DNA from: Cliona cf. orientalis
Lineage: Eukaryota > Porifera > Demospongiae > Clionaida > Clionaidae
Length of the DNA stretch: 64,000 nucleotides
Direction of reading: 5' to 3'
Assembly: GCA_963930775.1 (NCBI GenBank)
Contig: OZ005689.1
Coordinates: 15,314,923 to 15,378,922 of the forward strand
Numbering within the stretch: the first letter of the stretch is position 1; each line of letters starts with the position of its first letter. Below, piece by piece: positions 18,334 through 24,460 of this stretch. Under the pieces are notes generated by a model. That model was not told the origin of the DNA and did not search any database. It worked only from the letters and a program-made list of their open reading frames with translations. The position numbers and the translations under genes are program-made.

Positions 18334-18930
18334 GATTGCAGTGTGTGTGAATGTGCACAGAAACCTTATGTAGTGCCTAATAAGGTGCACATCTACCCAG
18401 ACAGAAGAGGTGTTGATATGTGAATGTGCACAGAAGGTGAGAGACCTTATGCCTATCATCAGATTGGGCAAAAAAGAGAAAAAAGAACTGGCTTTAGTAT
18501 GCTTCATGGGTCAAGAGGGCTACAGCCTATTTGACTATGTGCTCATATGCACAACTGGCATGGTATAAGTTAGCAAGCAAATATTATGTCTTCTGCTGTG
18601 CTGTTGCTTTGCCCTCAGGTTGATGCAGATGAGATGCACAGGTATGTGCTCTAGATGTGCATGTGAGAGAGAGATCAAAGGTAGACATCCTTCGAACTGG
18701 AGCACATACCCTGTGCACTGCACCAGCATCCCCAAAAGCTGTAGTAGTGAATGTCAATAGGAGTAGCAGTAGCAAACAGTACTTTTGCATCCATAATTGA
18801 GGCCAGCCTGAGCATGCCCCACATAATACAGTGATGCAGGGCAATCATGTACACATTGTGGTGGTACAAGTCACATTCCACAGTGGCACTGTGTAGTAGT
18901 GAGCAGGGGCGTGTCCAGAGAAATTCAGAT
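18334..18930 (+). repeat. Segmental duplication, copy 2
   Basis: Near-identical to 16794-17400, including the CAGGGGCGTGTCCAGAG junction with the S repeat. Confidence 0.85.
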
Positions 18931-19121
18931 CCTCTTAGCTGTTCACATTACAACCTACGCGGACATATGGAATACATTCTCACTCTCACCTCTCTCTCTC
19001 TCACCAAATACACACATTTTCTAGGTTTCACTATAAGCCATGTAGCTATGGTCATCCAGACAGAAACAGGTAGGTGTGTGTGTGTGTGTGTGTGTGTGTA
19101 TATGTGTGTGTGTGTGTGTGT
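18904..19121 (+). repeat. Left half of an S unit, split by the Penelope-like element
   Basis: Reads from CAGGGGCGTGTCCAGAG to the (TG)n of the unit. The other half (GA run, poly-G, TTGCTGGTATCAGTACTTCC) resumes only at 24301. Confidence 0.8.
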
Positions 19122-19928
19122 GTTTGGGAATTGGAAAAGAGGGTGAGATGGGCCTTGTCCGCCGACCATCAGACCCAACTGATTAGGGCTCCGCTAATCA
19201 GAGAGGCTTCTACATTACTTTTTATATGTACACATTTGACACAAAGTATCACAAAATTTAATTATAATTGCATGCATAAATTTAAAGTTGTTACATATAT
19301 GATATTAAAATATTAAAATAGTTCAGTTGTATATAAATGTTTCCGGTCATCAGGGGAGAACCCAGTCTGATCCTCACCAGCCACAGGTTTCGGTCCCATT
19401 AATCTCCCGACCTGCAGTGTGGTCAGCTACAGAGAGGGCGGGACCACTCCCCTACGAGGAGTCCGGTAGAGTATCCTTCGTTCTTTGTTCTTGATTATAG
19501 GTTCACGTGATAAGCTCCCATGTGTCACGTATCTAGTTAGCGTAATCGTAGTGGGCTGCACACATTTTTCTGGCCCCCAGTACATACGCAGCACCCACAT
19601 GCAGAGTGTTACTGGAAGCTGTCATTAGACTTCGGTAAGTTGCCATTATGCCAATATGTCCCCATAGGACCCATCATTCTTTCTTTTGTAGCTAGCTACC
19701 TAGAGTTAGGCCCGATTCAACTGGATTTAATCTTACTTTAGTGACTCACCCTCCTCAAGGTTGATTTCTCCAACATGTGCTTAGGCTACAGCTATTGGCA
19801 TGGGCCATGTGATTTTAATTTTATGCAGTGTTGGAGTCACTTGCTAATTCTGTGGGATGTAACACTATAATTAGCTGTGGTGTCCTGAGACTACAACATG
19901 TAGTTACCCTTTACCCTAACTCAAGCAT
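19122..19928 (-). repeat. Penelope pseudo-LTR, 3' copy
   Basis: About 807 bp, starting GTTTGGGAATTGGAAAAGAG and ending CTAACTCAAGCATG before (TG)n. It is the same as 23434-24225 apart from a few short indels and rare substitutions. Confidence 0.85.
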
Positions 19929-20044
19929 GTGTGTGTGTGTGTGTGTGTGTGTGTGTGTGTGTGTGTGTGTGTGTGTGTGTGTGTGTGTGTGTGTGTGTGT
20001 GTGTGTGTGTGTGTGTGTGTGTGTGTGTGTGTGTGTGTGTGTGT
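19928..20044. repeat. (TG)n microsatellite
   Basis: An uninterrupted TG run of about 117 bp between the pseudo-LTR and the 3' end of the Penelope-like element. Confidence 0.95.
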
Positions 20045-20051
20045 AAAAAAA

Positions 20052-20094
20052 CCCACAGGGGTGGGGGGACGCATGGGGCCCCCACCCCTGTGGG
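20052..20094. repeat. Hairpin in the 3' untranslated end of the Penelope-like element
   Basis: CCCACAGGGGTGGGGG (20052-20067) pairs perfectly with CCCCCACCCCTGTGGG (20079-20094) across an 11-nt loop. It lies between the endonuclease stop and the (CA)n tail, where an RT-recognition structure would be expected; that role is inferred. Confidence 0.8.
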
Positions 20095-22456: not shown

Positions 22457-23161
22457 CTGGGGTGGGTACAAATGAAAGTCCTTTAGATAAAAGTTCTAGT
22501 TCAGTCTGTGTGAGGGTTATGCTACTTAGATTGTGGACACTTAGGGTGGTTGGGGTGGGTTGGGGGGGCTTTGGAATAAAAAATGATCTTGTTTGGGGAA
22601 TTTAATTGCTTTGGGATGCCTCTTATTGCTTTTTCGTTTGCGGTTGTTTTGGGAGTGTGATGAGACTGAGGCTTGCGTTGAGGGATTGGTGCTAGCTTCG
22701 TCAACTGCAATTGGTGGGCTTGTGTATCCCGGTGGTAGTACTTTCTTAAGTTCATCTGGAACTTCTCTGATAATTTGATTTTCTGTGATGAAATTATCAT
22801 AGAGTCTGGCAATGTGTTCAGGGGTCTCACCACAGCTGCCAAGGTACTGGTCTATTTGTATCAGGATGTTGGCTAGGCGAGCTTTTCTAACTTCTAAGGC
22901 GATGTTGTTATTTGTCATCACTCTCTCCAGGTGCTTGAAAAATAAAGCTCTGTAATCTTTGTTGAAATCTTCGGTGAGGGATGTAATAGGGTTTACTGAT
23001 GTGAGCACTTTTGGTTGGTACATCTTTGGGATACTTTTGTGTAGCATCATACTTTGTTGTTGTTTGAGGGCGTGTTCGAGTTTGTTGACTTGGGTGAGAT
23101 GGGTTTTATACTCTTGTGATAGGGTACGCAACACGTGTTCGGACTTTTCTGGCATTGTCAT
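22457..23161 (-). pseudogene. N-terminal part of the Penelope-like polyprotein
   Basis: The ATG at 23161 opens 206 codons: a predicted coiled region (SEHVLRTLSQEYKTHLTQVN), then a helical segment, then a basic linker (NNRKRKSNKRHPK) and a proline-rich end that stops at TAA 22541-22543. A shifted frame continues LSVHNLSSITLTQTELELL to about 22460, where a second shift enters the RT frame. The first shift falls in a run of seven C, so loss of one base there is likely. The N-terminal region of PLEs is often poorly conserved and may bind nucleic acid. The start choice is the first ATG after an acceptor-like TGCTTTCCTACAG in the leader. Confidence 0.7.
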
Positions 23162-23433
23162 ATTTACTTTCTATAATGCAAAATGATATTACAAGATTTT
23201 ATGCAAATTTACACCATTTATTTGTAATTATTAATAATTAATGAAAATTAAATATTGTTGTGTCAAATGAGCCTGTTTTATTATTATGGCTGTAGGAAAG
23301 CAGCAGGTCTTTAGATCGGTAGCTCCGCTCCAGCCGGGGTTACCCCCAAGCAGAAGCTGCCGCCCCTGGGTTGACGGCTGGAGATAGCCCACCCCGACTA
23401 GCCCAAGGGCCAGCCCCGCACTCGGAGAGCACG
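23162..23433 (-). other. Leader of the Penelope-like element
   Basis: GC-rich, structured sequence between the upstream pseudo-LTR and the ATG. On the minus strand it ends in a good 3' splice-site motif (TGCTGCTTTCCTACAG, about 23291-23306), so a spliced leader or 5' intron is possible. Confidence 0.45.
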
Positions 23434-24225
23434 TGTGTGTTTGGGAATTGGAAAAGAGGGTGAGATGGGCCTTGTCCGCCGACCATCAGACCCAACTGAT
23501 TAGGGCTCCGCTAATCAGAGAGGCTTCTACATTACTTTTTATATGTACACATTTGACACAAAGTATCACAAAATTTAATTATAATTGCATGCATAAATTT
23601 AAAGTTGTTACATATAAATATTAAAATAGTTCAGTTGTATATAAATGTTTCCGGTCATCAGGGGAGAACCCAGTCTGATCCTCACCAGCCACAGGTTTCG
23701 GTCCCATTAATCTCCCGACCTGTGGTCAGCTACAGAGAGGGCGGGACCACTCCCCTACGAGGAGTCCGGTAGAGTATCCTTCGTTCTTTGTTCTTGATTA
23801 TAGGTTCACGTGATAAGCTCCCATGTGTCACGTGTCTAGTTAGCGTAATCGTAGTGGGCTGCACACATTTTTCTGGCCCCCAGTACATACGCAGCACCCA
23901 CATGCAGAGTGTTACTGGAAGCTGTCATTAGACTTCGGTAAGTTGCCATTATGCCAATATGTCCCCATAGGACCCATCATTCTTTCTTTTGTAGCTAGCT
24001 ACCTAGAGTTAGGCCCGATTCAACTGGATTTAATCTTACTTTAGTGACTCACCCTCCTCAAGGTTGATTTCTCCAACATGTGCTTAGGCTACAGCTATTG
24101 GGCCATGTGATTTTAATTTTATGCAGTGTTGGAGTCACTTGCTAATTCTGTGGGATGTAACACTATAATTAGCTGTGGTGTCCTGAGACTACAACATGTA
24201 GTTACCCTTTACCCTAACTCAAGCA
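23434..24225 (-). repeat. Penelope pseudo-LTR, 5' copy
   Basis: About 792 bp, matching 19122-19928. Differences include 5-bp losses (GACCTGTGGTCAGC here versus GACCTGCAGTGTGGTCAGC there). It ends in (TG)n at 24226-24300. Confidence 0.85.
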
Positions 24226-24300
24226 TGTGTGTGTGTGTGTGTGTGTGTGTGTGTGTGTGTGTGTGTGTGTGTGTGTGTGTGTGTGTGTGTGTGTGTGTGT

Positions 24301-24460
24301 GAGAGAGAGAGAGAGAGAGTGGGGGGGGGGGGGGAGAGAAATAATTTGTGTGTGTGTGAAGTTTGTGTCATTTGCTGGTATCAGTACTTCCGTCAAAAAT
24401 ATGTCCTTGAAGAGGAGGGTGCTAAGCCAGAGAAATCCAGATCCTTCTAGCTGTTCACTA
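24301..24460 (+). repeat. Right half of the S unit split by the Penelope-like element
   Basis: (GA)n, poly-G and TTGCTGGTATCAGTACTTCC, then GCTAAGCCAGAGAAATCCAG. This is the expected continuation of the unit that began at 18904. Confidence 0.8.

Follow-up and report, generated by a model that had tools for sequence, protein, structure and literature searches.

Why does a retroelement come to lie within the (TG)n tract of a satellite unit, and is this an accident of one locus or a property of its lineage? The question is raised by a minus-strand Penelope-like element (PLE) of the sponge Cliona cf. orientalis, which splits the (TG)n of a unit of the satellite S on contig OZ005689.1 (here C1; 37.5 Mb of the 216.8 Mb genome). 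The window is the whole stretch of 64,000 nucleotides that was analyzed, C1:15314923-15378922, and positions given without a contig name are counted from its first base. It is likely that the element belongs to a multi-family PLE lineage which integrates preferentially into (TG)n and is primed at an AC stretch of its own RNA. The evidence consists of the identity of the target, the fixed orientation, and TG flanking both ends; an AC motif conserved at the border between the pseudo-long terminal repeat (pLTR) and the element body, where the RNA shows covariation; and one 5'-truncated copy with loss of target sequence and a possible 3-base microhomology. The insertion comprises the following features.

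18903..19073, plus strand: left half of the S unit, the interrupted target, with 94-97% identity to sister units at 17374, 17756, and 18105
19074..19122, plus strand: target (TG)n at the sense-3' junction, with a single TATA interruption
19123..19927, minus strand: downstream pLTR, family A
19928..20044, minus strand: element-internal (CA)n in sense, (TG)58 on the plus strand
20045..23439, minus strand: element body
20051..20095, minus strand: hairpin immediately upstream (in sense) of the (CA)n; comparable hairpins lie at the same position in other families
20197..20457, minus strand: GIY-YIG endonuclease part, beyond an in-frame stop (PF01541, 15.6 bits)
20458..20460, minus strand: in-frame TGA within the GIY-YIG region
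20458..22296, minus strand: open reading frame (ORF) 2, reverse transcriptase (RT), counted from the first ATG (RVT_1, 37.4 bits)
22541..23161, minus strand: ORF1, 206 amino acids
22573..22588, minus strand: T TTT TTA heptamer context in the ORF1/ORF2 overlap, a possible -1 frameshift site
23355..23473, minus strand: conserved RNA region with covarying helices, spanning the pLTR-body junction
23427..23443, minus strand: CAAACACACACGTGCTC (sense), the putative internal start of reverse transcription, with the core AACACACACGTGCTC
23440..24225, minus strand: upstream pLTR
24226..24301, plus strand: (TG)38 at the sense-5' junction, element (CA)n fused to target TG with no visible boundary
24302..24470, plus strand: right half of the S unit, namely (GA)n, (G)n, and subsequent sequence, 93% identical to 17632-17787

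Read along the sense strand, the order is (CA)n, pLTR, the AACACACAC-GTGCTC junction, 5' untranslated region, ORF1, ORF2, hairpin, (CA)58, pLTR, and target (CA)n. These coordinates and the intact sister units agree that an S unit is broken in its (TG)n by a minus-strand PLE, as the initial annotation had proposed. The sister units at 17374-18351 are uninterrupted, and their alignment shows the empty site, a TG run that precedes (GA)n and is clean in one unit but contains a few deviating bases in the other two. The two pLTRs, about 0.8 kb each, are confirmed as the near-identical direct repeats of ~800 bp described earlier; they differ by one substitution over 785 aligned bases, plus 3 indels. 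They had also been described as abutting TG on both sides; this holds at three edges, but the inner edge of the right pLTR carries the short GTGTGTG of the element itself (23433-23439). TG/CA tracts of at least five units make up 1.3% of the window outside the insertion.

Genome searches with pieces of the element, whose copy numbers are lower bounds, revealed related copies that were assigned by inspection to families A (the window element), B (two full copies), D, E, F, and G, and to the non-autonomous N1-N3. The flanks of 55 outer sense-3' junctions were scored, drawn from three sets. The first provided 11 of its 13 matches (one internal junction and one match without an edge were excluded), the second 27 of 39 (four internal junctions and eight matches beginning inside the edge were excluded), and the third 17 junctions from B, D, and N loci, at which the edge was recognized by eye and edge-less segments were omitted. 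By flank similarity they form 34 groups, one of which comprises all three S insertions. At least five perfect TG units in a row are present on the sense-3' side of 30 of the 55 junctions and in 22 of the 34 groups, while 0.37% of background positions end in such a run on a given strand. Runs of at least two units are found at 43 junctions and in 28 groups, and the final 40 bases include (TG)3 or more in 51 cases and (CA)3 in none. Thus, most of the junctions read have TG at the flank, and a majority of non-TG flanks was not found. The seven outer family E junctions read have TG runs of 5, 9, 5, 8, 8, 3, and 6 units.

At the sense-5' ends with recognizable tags, a TG run of at least five units lies within 110 bases in 27 of 28 cases; the sole exception is the truncated copy at C1:28346. 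C2:4193, which is outside these 28, has no run of five near its end. Part of the sense-5' TG is carried by the element, because a TGTGTGTATG interruption is common to six of the eight sense-5' ends of family E.

TG is also present in the target, as seen from the intact S units and from sister copies of two more family A sites. The repeat that houses a solo family A pLTR at C1:32019 has at least 15 other matches; the two sister copies read are GTACGAG(TG)11TTTTGATTTG and GTACG(TG)7CTTTGATTTG, and the filled site is (TG)4, pLTR, (TG)22. At C1:28346, a family A pLTR sits in an apparent intron of a repeated gene, and at the start of the two sister introns read are TG tracts, both imperfect, of 113 and 131 bp. 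The copy with the insert has kept (TG)10 at the sense-3' side and is truncated inside the pLTR at the other end, with a possible 3-base microhomology, CTT; about 0.8 kb of sister sequence is missing. A truncated copy of ~200 nt on C14 is without the element (CA)n, yet has TG on both sides. Empty sites were not seen for B2, for N1 at C1:33226, and for N2 on C8 among the best 40 of 1628 and the best 40 of 153 candidates; the flanks of these copies are unique, co-duplicated with the insert, or common repeats. Because the empty sites carry TG, the tracts are not solely a component of the element that is absent from the target.

The S satellite has received more than one element. A full-length family D element with two pLTRs is bordered by S halves on both sides, and the TG tract is split in the same orientation. 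An N1 element lies behind the TG of a third S unit; this is visible on one side only, and the far side reads N. The same kind of unit has been hit by two different members (A and D), and probably by a third (N1). These insertions, that of N1 being one-sided, support the proposal that S is a reusable landing pad.

The AC-rich counterpart of the target is found in the element at the internal junction of pLTR and body. CAAACACACACGTGCTC, 17 nt, is identical between families A and B, and the neighboring sequence on the pLTR side differs. The core AACACACACGTGCTC (sense) is present at this junction in A, B1, B2, D, E (three copies), F, and G, corresponding to the six families read. The outer sense-3' edge of the pLTR coincides with the AC stretch of the internal junction in A, B, D, E, and G. 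In the consensus fold from seven sequences, the AC stretch is unpaired and located between a closing helix and a hairpin, and in each of nine single-sequence folds, at most one of its nine bases is paired. Changes on both sides of a pair are observed in 8 of 28 pairs, compared with a mean of 3.7 after shuffling (1 of 500 shuffles was as high) and with 0-2 pairs in slid alignments. The closing helix has two-sided changes in 4 of its 7 pairs.

That the elements land mostly in TG is probably explained by an AC stretch of their RNA, which matches the target and lies at the start of copying. The enzyme would cut within (TG)n, and the free TG 3' end would pair with the single-stranded AACACACAC of the RNA and prime internal reverse transcription. 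The complementary DNA (cDNA) would run through the pLTR, the (CA)n, the hairpin, the ORFs, and the second pLTR into another (CA)n. The terminal (TG)n of the cDNA would then anneal to the other side of the target and close the insertion, so that the (CA)n borne by the element would serve as homology for closing the opposite end. Insertion into, or priming on, a TG/CA microsatellite, as suggested in the initial annotation, is supported, and for the priming step we infer base-pairing.

Several points weigh against this reading. Twelve of the 34 flank groups have fewer than five perfect TG units and six have fewer than two (the short-run groups include C12:6182, a trio on C11, C6:889, B1, C2:4193, L115, and L116/L120), and C6:889, C2:4193, and C9:9068 are nearly without TG. 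TG is preferred rather than required, or the TG-poor copies have decayed. The GTGTGTG of the element provides up to about four TG units; short runs are uninformative, and therefore only longer runs count. Target-site duplications are not readable inside TG. The covariation comes from seven sequences whose alignment also yielded the fold, and the shuffles do not account for relatedness. Single-sequence folds give the consensus closing helix only in A, B1, and E; B2 has no closing helix at all, and in D, F, and G the region is closed in another way. Passages on Penelope in two papers state a preference for AT-rich DNA (PMC3846280, PMC3124438).

The same observations can be read in other ways. 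The endonuclease could determine the target, if the GIY-YIG protein prefers TG/CA DNA, possibly in a left-handed or nucleosome-free state, and reverse transcription starts at a fixed, protein-bound RNA site without base-pairing. Most of the observed pattern is also expected from an endonuclease with a preference for TG DNA, and passages of one paper propose that DNA conformation makes microsatellites landing pads for other elements (PMC12477314). This explanation is nevertheless rather unlikely, in view of the direct passage of the target TG into the element, the occurrence of TG and never of a CA run on that strand in the 55 junctions, and the start motif of the RNA, which in all six families read is an (AC)n stretch in its own right.

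Homologous exchange between TG tracts, for instance those of excised circles, would move pLTR-(TG)n pieces without reverse transcription at the sites themselves. TG on both sides in fixed orientation is likewise expected from it, and segmental duplicates and mixed tandems joined at TG do occur. It is improbable, however, since truncation affects one end and leaves the sense-3' edge unchanged at C1:28346 (with target loss) and in the C14 copy, the only two truncated copies studied, and since an RT is encoded and family E is young. It is very hard to credit that the TG flanks are nothing but the (CA)n tail of the element expanded by slippage at a random target, for although the element carries (CA)n and the TGTGTGTATG interruption recurs in 6 of 8 family E ends, the TG in the empty sister sites contradicts a random target, the C14 copy is followed by TG without a (CA)n of its own, and the same S-unit tract was hit by different elements.

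TG-primed insertion would also have a consequence for the structure of PLE clusters. Full copies carry (CA)n, and therefore new copies can land in old ones, which would help to build pLTR tandems. The (CA)n occupies the equivalent position in families B, D, and F/E, and in C1:27316/27353. Direct joins at (TG)n connect pLTRs from different families, F to E in L097 and E to F in L100. By eye, a family A pLTR is found behind a diverged pLTR end (C1:33230), and L104/L105 and L112 are behind pLTR-like ends. Such joins point to a contribution to PLE tandems from elements inserting into the (TG)n of existing copies, beside template jumping.

Canonical PLEs have a single ORF and a C-terminal GIY-YIG endonuclease. 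The present lineage differs in having two overlapping ORFs. RVT_1 of Pfam was recognized in ORF2 with 37.4 bits against a cut-off of 29.6. The GIY-YIG match (PF01541) downstream of the RT is weak, with 15.6 bits (E 0.021, cut-off 22.6); the motif region is free of stops at the place equivalent to the TGA in the B1, D, and C1:273 copies. A conserved recoding of this TGA was considered and rejected, because the B1, B2, D, and C1:273 copies encode lysine at this position. No Pfam domain over the cut-off was found in ORF1, and ORF2 had no match to solved structures at E<=0.01. The RT ORF lies in the -1 frame relative to ORF1 and overlaps it in the window copy (22573-22588), L125 (~541), and L126 (~547), and the T TTT TTA heptamer is identical and correctly phased in families A, B, and D, as well as in C1:32022. 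On sequence grounds, the overlap is a candidate for -1 programmed frameshifting in a PLE. The pLTRs were found in the window A, B1, B2, and D copies, and 5' truncation in the C1:28346 and C14 copies. A hammerhead ribozyme near the pLTR-ORF border has been described for many PLEs and is not treated here as defining; PLEs with an N-terminal endonuclease reportedly have no canonical hammerheads. No hammerhead was matched by Rfam at E<=1 within 17000-25500; the hairpin at 20051..20095 matches a microRNA model below the threshold.

Among known systems, the Naiad/Chlamys PLEs of Craig et al. 2021 reportedly carry pLTRs, form tandem insertions, and show an insertion bias for microsatellites. Their endonuclease is said to be N-terminal, before the RT, whereas the RT comes first here and the GIY-YIG part is C-terminal. 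Togen-type elements encode a restriction-like endonuclease and are not known to have pLTRs; here pLTRs are present, and no restriction-like endonuclease was reported in Pfam scans. The fish Togen shares the (TG)n target but, according to passages of its description, it is a non-LTR element related to NeSL and not a PLE (PMC4640811). The lizard PLE PAc (Poseidon from Anolis carolinensis) begins reverse transcription inside its RNA at an AC-rich stem-loop, and resembles the present lineage in its pLTRs, in the order of RT and GIY-YIG, and in this internal AC-rich start near the pLTR-ORF border (PMC11167929). PAc differs in preferring AT-rich DNA, in a start site that is non-homologous to the target, while the presumed start motif is complementary to the target here, and in having a hammerhead ribozyme, none of which was matched here (PMC11167929). 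Penelope of Adineta vaga is similar in partial tandems, pLTRs, and one 5' junction by microhomology; the passages on it describe target-site duplications of 8-10 bp and simple AT-rich targets, and (TG)n targeting does not occur in these passages (PMC3846280).

Among the literature titles searched, none was recognized as an account of PLE insertion primed by (TG)n or of a frameshifting PLE. Neither self-landing nor a start motif complementary to its target, supported by empty sites, was found in the titles and passages searched. The microsatellite bias of PLEs is reportedly already known.

The middle part of the family A pLTR has at least 41 genome matches (best 40 of 47 candidates). The RT has at least 73 matches (best 72 of 288 candidates), in which a set of ~38-74% identity is mostly on C1; a second, more distant set has ~30% identity, among the matches listed. 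Ten of the 39 family E matches listed show 99-100% identity, by which family E is judged to be young. Young family E copies at L101 and L095 sit between two similar, non-identical flank copies, which may stem from a tandem repeat that predates the insertion or from a target duplication of great length. Family E pLTR edges are also found ~1.2 kb apart at C1:33544606-33545982 and C1:29836687-29838048; these are probably short non-autonomous dimers, because the spacing is too small for the ORFs. A short dispersed repeat, GTTGGTAGTTGCTTAGCAACC, adjoins the TG tract behind two PLE copies, in the right flanks of B2 and L091.

The left half of S has at least 41 matches (best 40 of 81 candidates), and 38 of the 41 matches listed are on C1. 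In the dispersed repeat with the C1:32019 empty site, an S unit starts ~0.45 kb downstream of the TG tract (L085 660-801), which raises the possibility that S belongs to a dispersed repeat of greater length. Inverted S units are present on the minus strand at 14354-15029, separated from the direct S array by ~2.4 kb. Immediately right of the S remnant, at 24703-25093, lies a 9-bp-based minisatellite (GTTCCCAGT-like). Farther away, an 18-bp unit, TCTTGTGCATTCTCTGTG, is repeated in ~99 copies at 52705-54507, with several frames open on both strands.

Target choice by PLEs and the origin of pLTR tandems are both little understood, and this lineage ties both to one short motif. It offers natural data through its several families, its young copies, the empty sites, and a repeat unit that different elements have entered. 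As a more tentative extension, the RNA may act in the manner of telomerase RNA: a single-stranded AC stretch held by the fold would be where chromosomal (TG)n 3' ends anneal, this pairing would set the target, and the (CA)n of the element would become the next landing pad, explaining the growth of pLTR tandems. If such pairing between the RNA "template" and TG is true, it would link PLE integration to telomerase-style priming, an idea that is directly testable.

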